This document shows positions 22,222 to 32,033 of a DNA stretch of 64,000 bases, in pieces (positions within the stretch are counted from its first letter, which is position 1; every line of letters starts with the position of its first letter). The stretch is from positions 62,001 through 126,000 of the forward strand of contig JAFRFG010000054.1 of assembly GCA_017434455.1 (NCBI GenBank), written 5' to 3'. The position numbers and the translations under genes are program-made. Origin of the DNA: Thermoguttaceae bacterium. GTDB lineage: Bacteria > Planctomycetota > Planctomycetia > Pirellulales > Thermoguttaceae. The notes beneath the pieces are model-generated. The model worked only from the letters and a program-made list of their open reading frames with translations. It searched no databases and had not been told where the DNA came from.

Positions 22222-23463
22222 ATGACCCCCAATCACAGGAAAGCCCACCAAAAAAAGACCGGTCGCGTTTCGTCGGCTCCCCGTCAAGCGTCATACCTGT
22301 TCATTCAGTCCGACGAAGCGCTGCGCGCGTACCTGGAAAATGTCCAATCCGCCGAGTGGATCGCCATCGATACGGAATTTATCTCGGAGAGGCACTATTG
22401 CCCCGAACTGTGTTTGATTCAAGCCTCCGCCTTCGCCGGTTCGGTTCTCATTGATCCCCTGGCCATCCGTGATATGACTCCCTTTTGGGAGTTTCTTTGC
22501 AGCGGCATTCTTGTCATCGCTCATTCGTGCCGCAGCGAGTTGGAATTCTGCCATCGGGCTATAGGCCGCTTTCCCAAACGGCTGTTCGACGTACAGTTGG
22601 CCGCCGGCTTTGTCACGGAAGGTTACCCGCTGAATTTTAAGGATATCACCAGGACTTTTCTGCGCATCAATCTCCCTAAGGGAGAAACGCGCACCGATTG
22701 GCGCCGCCGGCCGCTGTCGCTTTTGCAGATAGAGTACGCGCTGAACGACGTCATTTGCCTCAACGATCTGGCGGTTCAGCTCACCGAAAAAATGAAGCGA
22801 GCCGAACGCTACGACTGGTTTCTTGAAGAGACCGATGCTTACCTAAACCGAATTGGCGAATCTTTTGGCGACAATCGCTGGAAGCAAATAGGTAAAAAAT
22901 ACTCGTTGTCCCGCTCACAGCTGGCCGTTGCCCGCGAGCTGTGGCGTTGGCGTGAGAAGAAGGGCCAGCTTCTCGATCGCCCGGTCGATCGAATCCTCAA
23001 AGATGAGATCCTGGCCGAGTTGGCCCGGCGTGATACCGCCGATCCCGAGGAGATCGCGCTGCAGAGGGATCTCGCCAGACGGAGCGATCTTGGGATACTC
23101 CTCAACGAGCTGCCGGCGGTCATCCGTCAGGGGATGTCCCTTCCCGAAAGCCAGCTTCCCGAACTCCCCGTGCGTAAAAAAATCCCAAACTACGACGTCG
23201 CTGTCCATTTTCTGACGATTATCCTGTCCAACTACGCGCATCGTCAAAAGCTCTCTTTGGGCCTCCTGGGTACGCCTATGGATTTCCGGGAGTTCCTCGC
23301 TCACCGTCAGGGGGTTCTCCCCGCGGGAATCACCCCCCGCTTGGATACCGGCTGGCGAAAGACCTTCCTCAACGGCCTGCTCGATTTAGTTCTCGACGGA
23401 CACATGGCGATAAAAATTACCGATTTCACTAAAAACGATCCCCTGGGTATAATAGAGTTATGA
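22222..23463 (+). CDS. rnd: Ribonuclease D-like 3'-5' exoribonuclease
   Basis: A 413-residue protein from the ATG at 22222 (MTPNHRK), with AGGCGG just upstream. An earlier in-frame ATG at 22138 would include the hairpin above. The DEDDy exonuclease domain shows AIDTEF at the first motif and [10 protein letters not shown] at the second, where Glu replaces the usual Asp. It also shows [27 protein letters not shown] (the Y-x3-D third motif), and then a helical HRDC-like region ([12 protein letters not shown]). RNase D trims tRNA and other small RNA 3' ends. It overlaps thiC by 4 nt. Confidence 0.85.
23425..23453 (+). promoter_or_regulatory. Possible internal promoter for thiC
   Basis: TTCACT (23425-23430), a 17-bp spacer and a perfect TATAAT (23448-23453) lie inside the end of rnd. 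The predicted start would fall at or next to the thiC ATG at 23460, which would make the transcript leaderless. Weak -35; hypothesis only. Confidence 0.35.
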
Positions 23464-24779
23464 CGCAGTATCAAGAGGCCCTGGCAGGGCATATAACGGC
23501 CGAAATGGAAGCCGTGGCGAAAAAAGAGTTTCTTCCCGCCGAAACAATCCGGTCGGAAATCGCCGCGGGACGTCTGGTCATCCCCGCCAACACGGTTCAC
23601 CTGCGCAAGGGACTTGATCCGGTCGGGATCGGCTCGGCGGTCACTTGCAAAATCAACGCCAACTTGGGAAATTCCGCGCTGGCCGGCGACCTCGACCGCG
23701 AACTGGAAAAAGTCCGCTGTGCCGTACGCTTCGGCGCCGACACGGTGATGGATCTTTCCACCGGTCCGGATATCGATCGGCTTCGTCAGAACGTGATCGA
23801 TCATGTCCGGGTCCCCGTCGGAACCGTTCCGCTCTACCAGGTCTGCGAGCAGCTCGATGATATCCTCGATATGACCCCGCGGCATTTCCTCGAGGCGGTG
23901 GAACATCAGGCCCGGCAGGGAGTCGACTACATGACGATCCACGCCGCGCTGCTGCGCCGGCACATCCCCTTGATCGACTCGCGCCTCACCGGGATCGTCA
24001 GCCGCGGCGGCTCCCTGATCGCCAAGTGGATGGCGGCCCATAAAGAAGAAAACCCCTTCTACACGCACTTTGGGGAACTGTGCGAAATTATGGGGCGTTA
24101 CGACGTCACCTGGAGTTTGGGCGACGGTCTGCGTCCGGGATGTTTGGCCGATGCCTCCGACGCGGCTCAATTCGGTGAGCTTTCGGTCATGGGAGAACTG
24201 TGCCGCCGGGCCCACGAGGCCGGAAACCAGGCGATGATCGAAGGCCCCGGCCATGTCCCGCTCGATCAGATCGAATCGAACATGGCCCGCCAGATTAAGG
24301 AATGCGACGGCGCCCCCTTCTATGTTCTCGGCCCCCTGGTGACCGACTGCGCCCCGGGATACGACCATATCACCGGCGCGATCGGCGGGGCGATGGCCGC
24401 CTGGCACGGCGCGGCGATGCTCTGCTACGTCACCCCGAAAGAACACCTGGGCCTTCCGAACCTCAACGATGTCCGTGAAGGGGTGATCGCCTTTAAGATC
24501 GCCGCCCACAGCGCCGACATCGCCCGGCATCGGCCCGGCGCGCGTGATCGCGACGACGCCATCTCGCGTGCGAGAAACGACTTCGATTGGCCGCGCCAAT
24601 TCAATCTGGCACTCGACTGTGACCGAGCGATCGGGTATTATAAAGAAGCTCGGGGGATGAGTCCCGATGATCCGCTCCCGGCCTGCTCCGAAAATTTCTG
24701 CACGATGTGCGGGCCGAAGTTCTGCGCGATGAAGACCACCGCCGAGCTGAAAATGCTCCGTGAGAAGAACGGCGACTGA
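23460..24779 (+). CDS. thiC: Phosphomethylpyrimidine synthase ThiC (thiamine biosynthesis)
   Basis: A 439-residue radical-SAM enzyme that makes HMP-phosphate from aminoimidazole ribotide. The catalytic cluster motif is at the C-terminus, CTMCGPKFC, a CxxCx4C set. Other landmarks are the conserved [30 protein letters not shown], and [15 protein letters not shown]. Its length fits the short bacterial ThiC class. The start overlaps the rnd stop by 4 nt (ATGA), suggesting translational coupling. There is no room for a TPP riboswitch immediately upstream, which is unusual for thiC. Confidence 0.96.
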
Positions 24780-24819: not shown

Positions 24820-25959
24820 ATGTCCAAGGTTCTCCCCAAATACTGCTGTTTGCTCGCGGTCATCCTCACCGCCTGCGCCGCTGCTGTGCTGTTTGCCGAA
24901 GATGTCGACGTCACGCCGACGATCGCCGACGGTATCGCCTGGTACAACGCCCAAAACTGGCCGGTCGAAAACAAGGGCTGGAACGATACGGCGCGTTACT
25001 TCGCCCGTCTTCCCGGCCGCGCCGAGGGGGTCGTTACCGGCAGTGTCTGGGGGCTGTCGCAGCACAGCGCCGGGGAATTGGTCCGCTTCCGGACCAACGC
25101 CCCCGCGATCCGGGTCAAGTTCCGCCTGTACAGCGCAAATCTGGCGATGACCCACATGCCGGCCACCGGCGTCAGCGGCCTGGATCTCTACGCCCTGGAC
25201 AAAAATGATTCGGATAGTGGCACCTGGAAATGGGCCGCCTGCACCCAGCCGAAAAACCAGGAAGACAACGTCGAGCTGATCGGTGGCATGAACCCGGTGA
25301 TGCGTGATTACATGCTCTACCTTCCGCTCTACAACGGGGTGGACGCCCTGGAGATCGGGGTCCCCGAGGGGGCCGAGTTCCACGCGGTTCTCCCCAGGAC
25401 GGACCGGCCGATTCTCTACTACGGAACCAGTATCGCCCACGGCGGCTGCTGCTCCCGCCCGGGGAACACCTTCACCGCGATGCTCTCCCGCCGCCTGGAT
25501 GTCCCCGTTCTGAATCTCGGCTTCTCCGGTTCGGCCAGGATGGAACCCGAATTGGGCGAGCTGTTCGCCGAACTTGATCCGGTTCTCTTTGTTCTCGACG
25601 CTTCGCCCAATATGAACGCCGCGCTGATCGACGAACGGGGAATCAACTTTGTTCAGATCCTTCGCGACAAGCATCCCGATACCCCGATCCTTCTGGTCGA
25701 AGACCGCGTCTACTCCAACTCGTGGATCATTCCTGGGAAAGCCGAGGCCAATCGGACCAACGAAGAGGCGCTGAAGAGGGTCTACGATCACTTCATCGCC
25801 GCCGGCGATAAGAATATCTACTACCTCAGCGCCGAGAACCTGATCGGTGAGGATATGGACAACGACTCGACGATGGACTCCTCGCACCTGAACGATCTGG
25901 GGATGTTCCGCATGACCGACTCGCTCGAGAAGGTGATTCGCCCCATCCTCGGCAAGTAA
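24820..25959 (+). CDS. Secreted SGNH-type esterase with GxDLY domain, paralogue 1 of 5
   Basis: A 379-residue protein from the ATG at 24820, preceded by GAAAGG. A signal peptide covers about the first 25 residues (CCLLAVILTACAAAVLFA). An N-terminal beta-sandwich domain follows with the GLDLY motif at 120-124. The SGNH hydrolase domain carries block I YGTSIAHGG with Ser204, NLGFSGSARM, DASPNM with Asn264, and DSSH with Asp353 and His356. All four blocks are intact, so it should be active. Relatives deacetylate or de-esterify polysaccharides. It lies 40 nt after thiC. Confidence 0.85.
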   Translation: MSKVLPKYCCLLAVILTACAAAVLFAEDVDVTPTIADGIAWYNAQNWPVENKGWNDTARYFARLPGRAEGVVTGSVWGLSQHSAGELVRFRTNAPAIRVKFRLYSANLAMTHMPATGVSGLDLYALDKNDSDSGTWKWAACTQPKNQEDNVELIGGMNPVMRDYMLYLPLYNGVDALEIGVPEGAEFHAVLPRTDRPILYYGTSIAHGGCCSRPGNTFTAMLSRRLDVPVLNLGFSGSARMEPELGELFAELDPVLFVLDASPNMNAALIDERGINFVQILRDKHPDTPILLVEDRVYSNSWIIPGKAEANRTNEEALKRVYDHFIAAGDKNIYYLSAENLIGEDMDNDSTMDSSHLNDLGMFRMTDSLEKVIRPILGK

Positions 25960-25976
25960 CCTCTTTTTCTTCGCGC

Positions 25977-26013
25977 CGCGCGCCGGCGGGGTTAAATGCC
26001 CCGCCGGCGCGCG
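25977..26013. terminator. Long perfect hairpin between SGNH paralogues 1 and 2
   Basis: CGCGCGCCGGCGGGG (25977-25991) pairs with CCCCGCCGGCGCGCG (25999-26013) around a 7-nt loop. A GTTT stretch follows. It could be a partial terminator or an mRNA stabiliser between copies. Confidence 0.5.
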
Positions 26014-26091
26014 GTTTGAGTGTTTGTACAAAGGTTCAAAACGGACGCGGTCTGCCCCTTGAACGTCCGTTTTTCACAAAAGGTTTTCGCT

Positions 26092-27228
26092 ATGTCCAAG
26101 GTCCTCCCCAATTACTGCTGTTTGCTCGCGGTCTTCCTCACCACCTGCGCCGCCGCGTTGTTTGCCGAAGATATTGATGTCACGCCGACGGTCGCCGACG
26201 GCATCGCCTGGTACAACGCCCAAAACTGGCCGGTCGAGAACAAAGCGTGGAACGACACGGCGCGTTATTTCGCCCGTCTTCCCGGCCGCGCCGAGGGGGT
26301 CGTTCCCGACGATGTCTGGCGTCTGTCGCAGCACAGCGCCGGGGAACTGGTCCGTTTCCGAACCGATGCCCCCGCGATCCGGGTCAAGTTCCGCCTGTAC
26401 AGCGATCAGCTGGCGATGACCCACATGCCGGCCACCGGCGTCAGCGGATTGGACCTCTACGCGCTGGACAAAAATGATTCCGACAGTGGCACCTGGAAAT
26501 GGGCCGCCTGCACGATGCCCCAAAGCCAGGAAGACAATGTCGAGCTGATCGGCGGCATGGACCCGGCGATGCGGGATTACATGCTCTACCTTCCGCTCTA
26601 CAACGGGGTGGACGCCCTGGAAATCGGGGTCCCCGAGGGAACCGAATTTCACGCGGTTCTCCCCAGAGCGGAGAAACCGATCCTCTACTACGGAACCAGT
26701 CTCGCGCAGGGCGGTTGCTGCTCCCGCCCGGGAAATCTCTACACCGCGATGCTCTCGCGCCGCTTGGATTACCCTGTCCTGAACCTCGGTTTCTCCGGTT
26801 CGGCCAGGATGGAACCTGAAATGGGGGAACTGTTCGCCGAGCTCGATCCGGTTCTCTTCGTCCTCGACGCTTCGCCTAATATGTACGCCGATCTGATCGA
26901 TCAGCGGGGTGTCAACTTTATTCGGATCCTTCGTGACAAGCATCCCGATACCCCGATCCTTCTGGTCGAAAATCACATCCACGCCCATTCGTGGATCATC
27001 CCCGGTAAAGCCGAGGAGGATCGAACCAACGTCGAGGCACTGCGCCGGGTCTATGATCAGCTCATTGCCGAAGGTGATAAGAATCTCTACTACCTCAGGG
27101 CCGATAACCTTGTCGGCGAAAAGATCGACAACGACACGACGATGGACGGTTCGCACTTAAACGATTTGGGGATGTACCGCATGGCCGACTCGCTCGAGGA
27201 GGTGATTCGCCCGATTCTTGGACTGTAA
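26092..27228 (+). CDS. Secreted SGNH-type esterase with GxDLY domain, paralogue 2 of 5
   Basis: A 378-residue close copy of the preceding gene from the ATG at 26092 (MSKVLPNYCC). Catalytic blocks are YGTSLAQGGCC (block I, Ile replaced by Leu), NLGFSGSARM, DASPNM and DGSH. In this copy the segment after DASPNM reads YADLIDQRGVNFIRIL. The GxDLY motif is intact. It is secreted by the same kind of signal peptide, starting with the same seven-residue sequence as paralogue 1 except for one residue. Upstream carries the ACAAAAGG ribosome-binding site. Confidence 0.85.
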   Translation: MSKVLPNYCCLLAVFLTTCAAALFAEDIDVTPTVADGIAWYNAQNWPVENKAWNDTARYFARLPGRAEGVVPDDVWRLSQHSAGELVRFRTDAPAIRVKFRLYSDQLAMTHMPATGVSGLDLYALDKNDSDSGTWKWAACTMPQSQEDNVELIGGMDPAMRDYMLYLPLYNGVDALEIGVPEGTEFHAVLPRAEKPILYYGTSLAQGGCCSRPGNLYTAMLSRRLDYPVLNLGFSGSARMEPEMGELFAELDPVLFVLDASPNMYADLIDQRGVNFIRILRDKHPDTPILLVENHIHAHSWIIPGKAEEDRTNVEALRRVYDQLIAEGDKNLYYLRADNLVGEKIDNDTTMDGSHLNDLGMYRMADSLEEVIRPILGL

Positions 27229-27245
27229 CTTTCCTCTCCCCGTGC

Positions 27246-27282
27246 CGCGCGCCGGTGGGGGTGACTGCCCGCCGGCGCGCGG
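27246..27282. terminator. Imperfect hairpin between SGNH paralogues 2 and 3
   Basis: CGCGCGCCGG pairs with CCGGCGCGCG around a short G/C-rich apex. It resembles the hairpin between paralogues 1 and 2, differing in the apex. Confidence 0.45.
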
Positions 27283-27336
27283 TTTGGGTGTTTGTACTGT
27301 TCCTTGAGTATCTGTTTTCACGAAAGGTCCTTTGGA

Positions 27337-28473
27337 ATGACGAAGTTCCTCCTCAAACACTCCTGTTTGCTCGCGGCGATTTTCGCCGTCTGCGCCGCCG
27401 CGCTGTTTGCCGAAGATATCGACCTCACGCCGACCGTGGCCGACGGTACCGCCTGGTACGACGCCCAAGATTGGCCGGTCGAGAACAAAGCGTGGAACGA
27501 CACGGCGCGTTACTTCGCCCGTCTTCCCGGCCGCGCCGAAGGGGTTGTTACCGACAATGTCTGGTATATGTCGCAGTACAGCGCCGGGGAAGTGGTCCGC
27601 TTCCGGACCGACGCCCCCGCGATCCGGCTGAAGTTCCGTTTATTCAGCCCGAATCTGGCGCTGTACAATATGCCGGCTACCGGCTACAGCGGAATCGATC
27701 TTTACGCGCTGGATAAAAGTACTTCCGACAGCGGTACCTGGCGATGGGCCGCCTGCACACAGCCGAAAAACCAGGAGGACGACGTCGAGCTGATCGGCGG
27801 CATGGACCCGGCGATGCGGGATTACATGCTCTACCTTCCGGTCTATAATGGCGTCGACGCCCTTCAGATCGGTGTCCCCGAAGGAGCCGAGTTCCATGCG
27901 GTCCTCCCCAGAACGGAGAAACCGATCCTCTACTACGGGACCAGTATCACGAACGGCGGCTGCGCCTCCCGTCCGGGGAACACCTTCATCGCGATGCTCT
28001 CCCGCCGCCTGGATATCCCCGTTCTGAACCTCGGTTTCGGCGGTGCGGCCAAGATGGAACCGGAATTGGCCGAACTGTTCGCCGAGCTCGATCCGATTCT
28101 CTTTGTCCTCGACGCTTCGCCCAATATGGACGCCGCGCTGATCGACCAGCGGGGTGTCAACTTCGTTCAGATCCTTCGCGACAAACATCCCGATACCCCG
28201 ATTCTTCTGGTCGAAGACCGCATCTACCCCGATTCGTGGCTCATCCCCTCGAGGGCCGCGACCAACCGGACCAATGAAGAGGCGCTGCGCCGGGTTTACG
28301 ATCACTTCATCACCGCCGGCGATAAGAATATCTATTACCTCAGTGCCGAAAATCTCCTCGGGGAGAATATCGACAACGACTCGACGGTCGATTACTCACA
28401 CCCGAACGATCTGGGAATGTATCGGATGACCGACTCGCTCGAGAAGGTGATTCGCCCCATCCTCGGATTGTAA
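27337..28473 (+). CDS. Secreted SGNH-type esterase with GxDLY domain, paralogue 3 of 5
   Basis: A 378-residue copy starting MTKFLLKHSC at 27337, with an ACGAAAGG ribosome-binding site and a leader peptide ending LFAEDIDLTP. It is among the more divergent copies. It has GYSGIDLYALDKSTSD in the sandwich domain, NLGFGGAAKM at block II, and DYSH in place of DSSH at block V. The Asp and His are kept, as is YGTSITNGGC at block I. Substitutions near the catalytic cleft suggest a somewhat different substrate, but this is inference. Confidence 0.85.
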   Translation: MTKFLLKHSCLLAAIFAVCAAALFAEDIDLTPTVADGTAWYDAQDWPVENKAWNDTARYFARLPGRAEGVVTDNVWYMSQYSAGEVVRFRTDAPAIRLKFRLFSPNLALYNMPATGYSGIDLYALDKSTSDSGTWRWAACTQPKNQEDDVELIGGMDPAMRDYMLYLPVYNGVDALQIGVPEGAEFHAVLPRTEKPILYYGTSITNGGCASRPGNTFIAMLSRRLDIPVLNLGFGGAAKMEPELAELFAELDPILFVLDASPNMDAALIDQRGVNFVQILRDKHPDTPILLVEDRIYPDSWLIPSRAATNRTNEEALRRVYDHFITAGDKNIYYLSAENLLGENIDNDSTVDYSHPNDLGMYRMTDSLEKVIRPILGL

Positions 28474-28567
28474 CTTCCCCTTCCCCGCGAACCTTTACCC
28501 CCCCAAAAAAGAACACGAACAGACATGATTCCCCCCGGTGTCTGTTTTTCACGAAAGGTTGTTCGCC

Positions 28568-29707
28568 ATGTCTAAGTTCCCCTTCAAACGCTGCTGTTTG
28601 CTCGCGGCGGTTTTCGCCGCCTGCGCCGCCGCGCCGCTGTTAGCCGAAGATATCGACGTTACGCCGACGATCAGCGACGGCATCGCCTGGTACAACGCCC
28701 AAAACTGGCCGGTCGAAAACAAGGCGTGGAACGACACGGCGCGTTACTTCGCCCGTCTTCCCGGCCGCGCCGAGGGGGTCGTTACCGGCAGTGTCTGGAA
28801 TCTGGCGCAGAAGAGCGCCGGTGAGCTGGTCCGTTTCCGGACCGACGCCCCCGCGATCCGAGTGAAGTTCCGCCTGTACGGCGCTCAGCTGGCGATCCCC
28901 CTGATGCCGGCCACCGGCTACAGCGGCCTGGACCTCTACGCGCTGGACAAAAATCATTCAGATAGCGGCACCTGGCGATGGGCCGCCTGCACCCAGCCGA
29001 AAAGCCAGGAAGACAATGTCGAGCTGATCGGCGGCATGGACCCGGTGATGCGGGATTACATGCTCTACCTTCCGCTCTACAACGGGGTGGACGCCCTGGA
29101 GATCGGGGTTCCCGAAGGAGCCGAATTCCACGCGGTTCTCCCCAGAACCCAGCGGCCGATTCTCTACTACGGGACCAGCATCACGAACGGCGGCTGTGTC
29201 TCCCGTCCGGGGAACACCTTCACCGCGATGCTCTCGCGCCGTCTGGATATTCCCGTTCTGAACCTCGGTTTCGCCGGTTCGGCCAGGATGGAACCAGAGC
29301 TTGGTGCGTTGTTCGCCGAGCTCGATCCGGTTCTCTTTGTCATCGACGCCCTGCCGAATATGGACGCCAAGCTGATCGACGAAAGGGGGATCAACTTTGT
29401 CCAAATCCTTCGTGACAAACATCCCGATACCCCAATTCTTCTGGTGGAAGACCGCGTCTACTCCAATTCGTGGATCATCCCCTCGAAAGCCGAAAGGAAT
29501 CGAACCAGCGCGGAGGCGCTGCGCCGGGTTTATGACCACTTCATCGCCGCCGGCGATAAGAACATCTACTACCTCGGCGCCGAAAACCTCCTCGGGGAGA
29601 ATATCGACAACGACTCGACGATGGATTCCTCGCACCCGAACGATCTGGGAATGTACCGCATGACCGACGCGCTCGAGCGGGCGATCCGTCCCATTCTCGG
29701 AATGTAG
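28568..29707 (+). CDS. Secreted SGNH-type esterase with GxDLY domain, paralogue 4 of 5
   Basis: A 379-residue copy from the ATG at 28568 (MSKFPFKRCC), ribosome-binding site ACGAAAGG. Block I is YGTSITNGGCVS, block II NLGFAGSARM, block III DALPNM (Ser replaced by Leu beside the conserved Asn) and block V DSSH. The signal peptide ends in APLLAEDIDVTP. The beta-sandwich motif is GYSGLDLYAL as in copy 3, and the next four residues are DKNH instead of DKND. It is likely active. Confidence 0.85.
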   Translation: MSKFPFKRCCLLAAVFAACAAAPLLAEDIDVTPTISDGIAWYNAQNWPVENKAWNDTARYFARLPGRAEGVVTGSVWNLAQKSAGELVRFRTDAPAIRVKFRLYGAQLAIPLMPATGYSGLDLYALDKNHSDSGTWRWAACTQPKSQEDNVELIGGMDPVMRDYMLYLPLYNGVDALEIGVPEGAEFHAVLPRTQRPILYYGTSITNGGCVSRPGNTFTAMLSRRLDIPVLNLGFAGSARMEPELGALFAELDPVLFVIDALPNMDAKLIDERGINFVQILRDKHPDTPILLVEDRVYSNSWIIPSKAERNRTSAEALRRVYDHFIAAGDKNIYYLGAENLLGENIDNDSTMDSSHPNDLGMYRMTDALERAIRPILGM

Positions 29708-29809
29708 CCCACTGTCCCCGCGGCACGCCCGCGAACCTTTATCCCCAAAAAGAACCCGAACCGACATTATTCCCTCTAGCGCCTGTTTTTCACGAAAGGT
29801 TTTTTCGCC

Positions 29810-30946
29810 ATGCAAAAGATTCTCCCCCAGTGCCGCTGCCTGATCGCGGCGTTTTTCGCCGCCTGTGCCGCCGCGCTGTTTGCCGAAGATGTCGACGTCA
29901 CGCCGACGGTCGCCGATGGGATCGCCTGGTACGACGCCCAAAACTGGCCGGTCGAAAATAAAGCGTGGAACGATACGGCGCGTTACTTCGCCCGTCTTCC
30001 CGGCCGCGCCGAGGGGGTCGTCACCGGCAGTGTCTGGAACCTCTCGCAACACAGCGCCGGGGAACTTGTCCGTTTCCGAACCAATGCCCCCGCGATCCGG
30101 CTGAAATACCGTCTGCTCAACGCTCAGCTCGATTTTCCCCACATGCCGGCTACCGGCGTCAGCGGCCTGGACCTCTACGCGCTGGACAAAAATGATTCCG
30201 ACAGTGGTACCTGGAAATGGGCCGCCTGCACGCAGCCGAAAAGCCAGGAAGACAATGTCGAGCTGATCGGCGGTATGGACCCGGTGATGCGGGACTACAT
30301 GCTCTACCTTCCGCTCTACAACGGGGTGGACGCCCTTCAGATCGGTGTCCCCGAAGGGGCTGAATTCCACGCGGTTCTCCCCAGGACGGACCGGCCGATT
30401 CTCTACTACGGAACCAGTATCGCCCACGGCGGCTGCGCCTCCCGTCCGGGGAATGCCTATACCGCGATGCTCTCGCGCCGCCTGGATATCCCCGTTCTGA
30501 ACCTCGGTTTCTCCGGTTCGGCCCAGATGGAACCGGAATTGGCCGAGCTGTTCGCCGAGCTCGATCCGGTTCTCTTCGTCCTCGACGCCTCGCCCAATAT
30601 GGGTCCCGATCTGATCAACGCGCGGGCCGCCCATTTCGTTCAGATCCTTCGCGACAAGCATCCCGATACCCCGATCCTTCTGGTGGCGGACCGTATCTAC
30701 TCCAATTCGTGGATCATCCCGTGGAAAGCCGAAAGCAACCGGGCCAATGAAGCGGCGGTTCGCGGCGTCTATGATCAATTTATTGCCGCCGGCGATAAGA
30801 ATATCTACTTCCTAACCGCCGAAAACCTCATCGGCGACGATATCGACAAAGACTCGACGATGGATTCCTCGCACCTGAACGATCTGGGGATGTACCGCAT
30901 GACCGACTCGCTCGAGCGGGTGATCCGTCCCATTCTTGGGAAGTGA
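29810..30946 (+). CDS. Secreted SGNH-type esterase with GxDLY domain, paralogue 5 of 5
   Basis: A 378-residue copy, the last of the array, from the ATG at 29810 (MQKILPQCRC). Blocks are YGTSIAHGGCAS, NLGFSGSAQM, DASPNM and DSSH, all intact. The helix after block III differs most (GPDLINARAAHFVQIL, then LLVADRIYSNSW), and one segment of the sandwich domain reads LLNAQLDFPHMPATG. Block I matches copy 1 rather than the neighbouring copy 4, a mosaic that fits gene conversion. The dus gene follows after 52 nt. Confidence 0.85.
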   Translation: MQKILPQCRCLIAAFFAACAAALFAEDVDVTPTVADGIAWYDAQNWPVENKAWNDTARYFARLPGRAEGVVTGSVWNLSQHSAGELVRFRTNAPAIRLKYRLLNAQLDFPHMPATGVSGLDLYALDKNDSDSGTWKWAACTQPKSQEDNVELIGGMDPVMRDYMLYLPLYNGVDALQIGVPEGAEFHAVLPRTDRPILYYGTSIAHGGCASRPGNAYTAMLSRRLDIPVLNLGFSGSAQMEPELAELFAELDPVLFVLDASPNMGPDLINARAAHFVQILRDKHPDTPILLVADRIYSNSWIIPWKAESNRANEAAVRGVYDQFIAAGDKNIYFLTAENLIGDDIDKDSTMDSSHLNDLGMYRMTDSLERVIRPILGK

Positions 30947-30998: not shown

Positions 30999-32033
30999 AT
31001 GAAAGAAGCGTTTCAAATAGGGCCGGTAACGGTCCGGCCGCCGTTTCTCTCCGCGCCGATGGCCGGATTCACCAACGGGGCCTTTCGTTCGATACTGCGC
31101 CACTTCGGCGGGGTGGGGCTGATCGCAACCGAGATGATCTCCGCCCGCGCGTTCGTTCATCGCAGCGCCGCGGGCCAATCGCACCCCGACCGGCTCTGGG
31201 GGGTCGCCGAAGAGCCGGCCCCCCTGTCGGTTCAGATTTGGGACAACCAGCCCGAGACCCTCGCCGAGACCGCCAGCCGTATCGCCCGGGAGTATCATCC
31301 CGCGGTCATCGATCTAAACTTCGGCTGTCCGGCCCCTAAGATCGCTCGCAACAGCGCCTCGGGTTCGGCTCTTTTGCGCGATCCGCAAAAGGTGGGAGAC
31401 ATCGTCGCGATGGTCGCCTCGGTCACCGAGGGGCTCCCCGTCACCGCGAAAATCCGCCTGGGACTTACCGCCGACACCATCAACGCCGTCGATGTCGCCC
31501 AGGCGGTCGAGGCCGCCGGCGGCAAGGCGCTGACCGTGCACGGGAGAACCGCCGCGCAGATGTACCGGGGCCAGGCCGATTGGGAAGAGATCGGTAAAAT
31601 ACGCCCCTATCTCAAGGCGATCCCCCTGATCGGGAACGGTGATATCCGCGCTCCGGAAACCGCCGTGGCGCGCCTGCGCGACACAGCGGTCGACGGGGTG
31701 ATGATCGGCCGCGCGGCGCTGAGCCATCCATGGATATTCTCTCAAGCCGCGGCGCTTCTGCGCGGCGAGCCCCTTCCCCCTGCCCCCGACCGGCGGGAAG
31801 AACGGGAGCTGATCATCGGCCATTACCAACTCATCTGCCAACGTTTCGGACCCGTCAAAGGGACGATTCTTATGCGCAAGTACGCCGCCGAATGGTCTCG
31901 AGGCCGTGATCGCGGCAAACTCTTCCGAGTCGCCGCTTCCGGCGCGAGCACCCCCGAGGAATTCCTCGAGGCGATCGATCAGTTCTTCGACGGCGACGTA
32001 CCTTCCGCCGCCGAGGCGGATAAACAAGAGTGA
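30999..32033 (+). CDS. dusB: tRNA-dihydrouridine synthase (DusB-like)
   Basis: A 344-residue FMN enzyme that reduces uridines in the tRNA D-loop or other sites. The N-terminal TIM barrel starts with FLSAPMAGFTNGAFR, and the catalytic Cys lies in NFGCPAPKIARNSASGSALL. The FMN-binding GNGDIRAPETAV and the C-terminal helical domain (LICQRFGPVKGTILMRKYA) are present. It is 52 nt after the esterase array and may share its transcript. Its 3' end is followed by a fragment of an MBOAT gene on the other strand. Confidence 0.9.
   Translation: MKEAFQIGPVTVRPPFLSAPMAGFTNGAFRSILRHFGGVGLIATEMISARAFVHRSAAGQSHPDRLWGVAEEPAPLSVQIWDNQPETLAETASRIAREYHPAVIDLNFGCPAPKIARNSASGSALLRDPQKVGDIVAMVASVTEGLPVTAKIRLGLTADTINAVDVAQAVEAAGGKALTVHGRTAAQMYRGQADWEEIGKIRPYLKAIPLIGNGDIRAPETAVARLRDTAVDGVMIGRAALSHPWIFSQAAALLRGEPLPPAPDRREERELIIGHYQLICQRFGPVKGTILMRKYAAEWSRGRDRGKLFRVAASGASTPEEFLEAIDQFFDGDVPSAAEADKQE

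Follow-up and report, generated by a model that had tools for sequence, protein, structure and literature searches.

A tandem array of five predicted secreted GxDLY-SGNH hydrolase genes with divergence near the active site in a Thermoguttaceae genome

Most of the studied SGNH hydrolase families act on carbohydrates, and a 2022 review (PMC9487903) counts Lipase_GDSL_3 among the families lacking a characterised member. The present analysis concerns five genes, each coding for a GxDLY and a Lipase_GDSL_3 domain, which stand head to tail at positions 24820–30946 of a 64,000-nucleotide stretch of DNA (the window; all coordinates refer to it unless a contig is named) from a Thermoguttaceae bacterium (assembly GCA_017434455.1, contig JAFRFG010000054.1). 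Their closest solved relative is 4lhs (BACOVA_00914) from the gut species Bacteroides ovatus. This protein shares both domains and the catalytic motifs with the array, but differs from its five tandem copies, whose active-site loops are altered; its annotation is that of a putative lipase with no substrate known, and a search of the literature on GxDLY or BACOVA_00914 retrieved no publication. A phmmer comparison with 4lhs (E 2.5e-49 over 340 residues) provides sequence support for the SGNH fold that is independent of structure prediction.

In a Foldseek search with a predicted model, the best matches were, in this order, 4lhs (E 9.6e-19), the acyltransferase SsfX3 (3skv), carbohydrate esterase family 2 (CE2; 2wao and 2waa) and a peptidoglycan O-acetylesterase (4k3u), which places the model, with a predicted local distance difference test score (pLDDT) of 62, in the SGNH fold. 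The fold match to SsfX3 is nearly full-length (E 5e-12) and is joined by a weak match in sequence; SsfX3 is, however, a salicylyl acyltransferase of tetracycline biosynthesis, whereas the array is flanked by housekeeping genes. The CE2 enzymes likewise display a two-domain layout with a C-terminal SGNH domain and a near full-length match (E 3e-7), but are 13–14 % identical to the array proteins, the resemblance being one of fold. Among planctomycetes, five single-copy orthologues of the same genus (L032–L036) agree with the array in domains and length at 58 % mean identity, but occur as one copy, beside EF-P in locus L032, and are nearly invariant in their catalytic blocks (3/46 positions variable). 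A head-to-tail pair kept in two species of another genus of the family (G087, locus L049, and G100, locus L050) resembles the array in arrangement, but stems from a separate duplication and comprises only two copies.

Catalytic residues and divergence of the five copies

All five genes are ATG-started open reading frames on the forward strand: copy 1 (24820–25959, 379 residues), copy 2 (26092–27228, 378), copy 3 (27337–28473, 378), copy 4 (28568–29707, 379) and copy 5 (29810–30946, 378). The five head-to-tail paralogues of 378–379 residues described in an earlier note on this DNA were thus confirmed, as were their intact GxDLY domain and the four SGNH blocks. Profiles PF14607 (GxDLY; E 3e-41 to 2e-46, 141–158 bits) and PF14606 (Lipase_GDSL_3; E about 1e-55, 186–192 bits) match every copy, the cut-off being 27 bits for both; NCBIfam yielded no match. 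The proteins are 77–86 % identical to one another and their genes are free of frameshifts and stops. On the DNA level, the repeat unit recurs five times at a spacing of 1234–1269 bp and includes a leader of about 40 bp before each start, composed of a T-run and a ribosome-binding site. The leader motif TTTTTCACGAAAGG was considered as a genome-wide signal and rejected, five of its eight matches in the genome preceding the five copies. No sixth GxDLY gene was found in this genome.

Residues S204, G237 (block II), N264, D353 and H356 are invariant in the five copies and in 54 homologues, which identifies the proteins as SGNH members; block I reads GTS rather than GDS. Around these residues the copies differ. 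Block I is GTSIAHGG in copies 1 and 5, GTSITNGG in copies 3 and 4 and GTSLAQGG in copy 2, while block V is DSSHL in copies 1 and 5, DSSHP in copy 4, DGSHL in copy 2 and DYSHP in copy 3. Block II reads GFGGAA in copy 3 and GFAGSA in copy 4. The earlier assertion that such variants are confined to single copies therefore holds for LAQ, DGS, DYS and DALPNM (block III of copy 4), but not for IAH and ITN, which are each shared by two copies, nor for DSS, which occurs in copies 1, 4 and 5. Moreover, the leucine of DALPNM is present in 47 of the 54 homologues, so that copy 4 retains the family-typical state and DASPNM of copies 1, 2, 3 and 5 is the novelty. Position 112, histidine in 52 of the 54 homologues, is asparagine in copy 3 and leucine in copy 4. 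Copy 2 has the loop ENHIHAHS after strand 4 and carries the derived residues L205, N295, H296 and H298, all of which are retained in its orthologue in a sister species and absent from the 54 homologues; N112, Y118, G236, A238 and Y354 of copy 3 are likewise absent from these homologues at the respective positions.

The N-termini of all copies resemble Sec-type signals ending in LFA/LLA-ED. A positively charged n-region, a hydrophobic stretch and an alanine-rich, cleavage-like site were recognised by eye in all copies and in the homologues, and the array enzymes are accordingly predicted to be secreted. Cysteine C19 is common to all copies, but fits a lipobox (LTAC) in copy 1 only. Two homologues, L040 (genome G039) and L041 (genome G019), possess twin-arginine-like N-termini (PRRHFLAL and SRRSFVRF, respectively) in place of the Sec-like ones of the others, which may point to a switch of export pathway.

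The distribution of replacements was evaluated against the five single-copy genus orthologues as baseline, the mean identity of which (81.3 %) about equals that of the array (82.6 %). Of 46 catalytic-block positions, 13 are variable in the array and three among the single-copy orthologues (interaction p=0.0015). Sites variable only in the array divide 11:48 between blocks and remaining positions, those variable only in the single-copy set 1:64 (p=0.0015), and the excess is stable for windows of 2–12 residues around the catalytic residues and on omission of any one copy. When the array is viewed by itself, its variable sites are not enriched in the blocks (p=0.73), so the comparison with single-copy orthologues is needed to reveal it. 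Counted over pairs, which are not independent of each other, blocks account for 78 of 613 changes between paralogues, 16 of 648 between single-copy proteins and none of 41 between copies 1 and 2 and their orthologues in the sister species, whereas the paralogue rate would predict about five (P=0.004). Of the 55 differences between copies 1 and 2, 33 are retained in the sister species. In the SGNH domain, the loops following the five strands are variable at 51 % of their positions in the array versus 14 % in the single-copy proteins, the remainder being alike (34 % vs 33 %). These loops harbour 15 of the 22 sister-kept differences between copies 1 and 2 and two of the 16 not kept. This loop test supports divergence at the predicted active site rather than confirming it independently.

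Since a McDonald-Kreitman-like count (41:24 vs 50:102, p=5e-5) is biased by synonymous saturation, it was set aside and the ratio of nonsynonymous to synonymous substitution rates (omega) was estimated on quartets instead. Omega amounts to 0.43 (bootstrap 0.24–0.94) on the branch separating copies 1 and 2 and to 0.13 (0.08–0.18) between orthologues; positive selection, for which the earlier note had proposed a check around blocks I, III and V, is not borne out by the paralogue value, which lies below 1. The nearest neighbours among the copies shift along the gene, suggesting gene conversion among them. Overall, with paralogue-specific residues kept across species and concentrated at the active site, the array copies appear to be functionally diverged, as judged from copies 1 and 2, which have orthologues.

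Sister genome, age of the array and copy number in relatives

The metagenome-assembled genome (MAG) RUG14274 of an uncultured planctomycete, a sister species in the same genus, displays the gene order nhaD-rnd-thiC-copy 1-copy 2-copy 3, the contig ending after the start of copy 3. Orthologues are 95.7 % (copy 1) and 90.7 % (copy 2) identical, and copy 3 is represented by an N-terminal fragment at the contig edge, so that full orthologues for testing are restricted to copies 1 and 2. Because copies 1 and 2 and the beginning of copy 3 occur there in the same order, an array of at least three copies so arranged already existed when the species separated. The synonymous divergence (dS) is 0.39–0.48 between paralogues, 0.18 (copy 1) and 0.33 (copy 2) to the orthologues, and 0.18 for nhaD between the species, the paralogue values being about twice that of nhaD. 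A recent dosage amplification was rejected, as the paralogue dS of about 0.4 exceeds that of the split. An assembly artefact was equally rejected on account of the distinct spacers, the size of the contig (C24, >228 kb) and the independently assembled sister genome. The earlier note had held that single-copy loci in close relatives would expose the array as such an artefact; single-copy relatives do exist, yet RUG14274 carries the same array order after thiC.

The other five genus members harbour one copy each, 56–60 % identical and located near nhaD/rnd in a different arrangement. In the order, the domain was detected in 176 of 396 genomes, of which 167 contain one copy, seven two, one four and only the present genome five, these numbers elsewhere being lower bounds because incomplete MAGs can hide repeats. 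The expansion is hence atypical, as had been proposed. The genome with four copies (G066, same family) holds them dispersed on contigs C7, C56, C73 and C84 (L051–L054) as deeply diverged GxDLY-SGNH paralogues. Relatives retrieved from the class at E<=1e-100 are single-copy, and across the class the share of genomes with the single-copy gene lies between about a quarter and a half. In the phylogeny with homologues that the earlier note had called for, the G087/G100 pair forms its own clade, evidencing an independent duplication; the array clade and the single-copy genus clade are not firmly placed as sisters. Block shares of the pair are similar between paralogues (about 11 %) and orthologues (7–13 %), and the pattern of block change followed by freezing is thus not repeated by it.

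Flanking genes, spacers and other SGNH clusters

Upstream of the array, the gene at 23460–24779 (forward strand) presumably codes for ThiC (phosphomethylpyrimidine synthase); its order relative to copy 1 is syntenic with the sister genome, and a hairpin with a T-run surrounds the thiC stop immediately before copy 1. The downstream gene (30999–32033, forward strand) is taken to encode a tRNA-dihydrouridine synthase (Dus), a homologue of which lies near rnd/nhaD in genus relatives. A long GC-rich hairpin occupies the spacer between copies 1 and 2 (25976–26014, forward strand; fold z -6.0), that of the sister folding alike, and recurs between copies 2 and 3 (27245–27282, forward strand; fold z -4.9), where it is also kept in the sister. 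It is possibly a terminator or an mRNA-protecting stem, and as terminators the hairpins could separate the expression of the copies. A genome-wide repeat was rejected, the pattern being confined to these two spacers. On the reverse strand, an open frame of 606 codons (28958–30778) spans copies 4 and 5; since shadow frames of this kind are found repeatedly on the strand opposite homologues in the class, it is probably an effect of codon usage and not a gene. Apart from an antisense shadow frame, no neighbour is shared among 24 loci of the class, and within the genus and the order the adjacent genes vary (EF-P, sulfatase, BNR repeat, QRPTase, HerA). Reading a function from the gene neighbourhood was therefore rejected.

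Outside the array, 25 matches to Lipase_GDSL_2 were identified in the genome, many in tandem clusters, and the total of 29 exceeds that of every one of 39 relatives searched (at most 22). A second SGNH array (G000:C37:74957-81430; L094:2739-9500) consists of five Lipase_GDSL_2 genes with one domain each, which are 53–71 % identical and of which four are contiguous. Double-domain SGNH genes are located at G000:C39:23899-27975 (L095), C20:1-3020 (L097) and C10:23347-29497 (L096). Since each of these three contigs breaks off within such a gene, they may be parts of a single larger array that was fragmented during assembly; the C10 and C20 genes are 80–89 % identical. With these other tandem clusters, the esterase expansion looks genome-wide. 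The genome also carries GH43 (glycoside hydrolase) genes and, at G000:C15:66629-68786 (L099), two GH10 xylanase-like genes in tandem. Its habitat is probably the gut, judging from the cow-rumen origin of the sister. In a survey, the highest coding frequency of carbohydrate-active enzymes was found in an uncultivated ruminant-gut Thermoguttaceae genome (PMC11131199).

Probable function and alternative explanations

The array would best be explained by a secreted two-domain SGNH hydrolase gene, single-copy and common in this class of Planctomycetota, that was amplified in tandem before the species split. The copies would then have diverged, with replacements gathering in the active-site loops after strands 1–5 of the SGNH domain and later being held by purifying selection. 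All copies keep the Ser-(Gly)-Asn-Asp/His set (catalytic Ser, His and Asp; oxyanion hole) and are probably all active ester hydrolases. Most likely they strip O-acyl groups, for the most part O-acetyl, from complex polysaccharides outside the cytoplasm, and individual copies may suit different acyl positions or sugars; the organism would be a polysaccharide degrader of the gut with several tandem clusters of expanded secreted SGNH esterases. The array, its orthology, the constraint on it, the catalytic residues and the localised divergence are shown directly, whereas secretion, esterase activity, carbohydrate substrates and their difference between copies are what we infer; the joint reading of pre-split amplification, divergence of active-site loops and specialised secreted polysaccharide deacylases is given a probability of roughly 0.55.

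If the copies catalysed the same reaction and differed merely in amount or timing, sequence differences would represent tolerated drift. The preserved catalytic residues, an omega well below 1 throughout, and the individual leaders and strong hairpins in some spacers, which make separate expression possible, agree with such a role in dosage or expression, but block changes are far commoner than among equally diverged orthologues and then frozen, and copies 2 and 3 hold residues absent from the 54 homologues at well conserved positions, rendering it unlikely; functional divergence fits better than pure dosage. Relaxed constraint, under which some copies (chiefly 3 and 4) drift after duplication and lose the ancestral activity, could account for the loss of the near-invariant H112 and S236 in these two copies, and the block share of the array changes (13 %) does equal the share of sites in blocks. 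We regard it as rather improbable nonetheless, more firmly for copies 1 and 2 with their full orthologues than for copies 3–5, given that no copy has suffered a frameshift, stop or loss of a catalytic residue and that block changes are lacking between the orthologues of copies 1 and 2 (0/41, about five expected, P=0.004). In a third alternative, the enzymes act on the envelope or exopolysaccharide of the organism itself, or they transfer acyl groups instead of hydrolysing them, like SsfX3, the second-best fold match. This would suit a single-copy gene that roughly a quarter to half of the class genomes carry; the gene was, however, expanded in a gut lineage that also has other SGNH clusters and GH10/GH43 genes, and the closest solved relative, 4lhs, comes from a gut species, which makes this the least probable of the three.

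Several points weigh against specialised polysaccharide deacylases. The neighbours are housekeeping genes and none is conserved in the class. The ancestral substrate need not be a plant polysaccharide, because many planctomycetes with larger genomes, presumably free-living ones, carry the gene as well. Full orthologues are limited to copies 1 and 2, the structural model behind the Foldseek matches is weak, and the loops were drawn from this AlphaFold model (pLDDT 62) after the variable sites had been listed. Omega on the paralogue branch stays below 1 at 0.43, leaving positive selection unproven, and ectopic gene conversion could have lowered synonymous divergence on that branch. Finally, PF14606 has no characterised member (PMC9487903). 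The earlier suggestion of tuned enzymes instead of simple dosage gains comparative support from the block divergence, which exceeds that of equally diverged single-copy orthologues and is kept in the sister; acetylated carbohydrates as substrates, and an own substrate for each copy, go beyond these data.

That genes of secreted enzymes duplicate in tandem and then diverge is ordinary, and the array is a well-supported new case of this process; Planctomycetota of this lineage are evidently able to expand secreted esterases in tandem. Together with the single-copy baseline, it offers an efficient start for assigning an activity to Lipase_GDSL_3 and for mapping its specificity loops. A natural specificity series, in which selection has adapted each of the five copies to an acylated glycan of its own, is a tentative proposal with somewhat less than an even chance; if true, the array would be a ready set for finding the function of the family and the loops that set its specificity.

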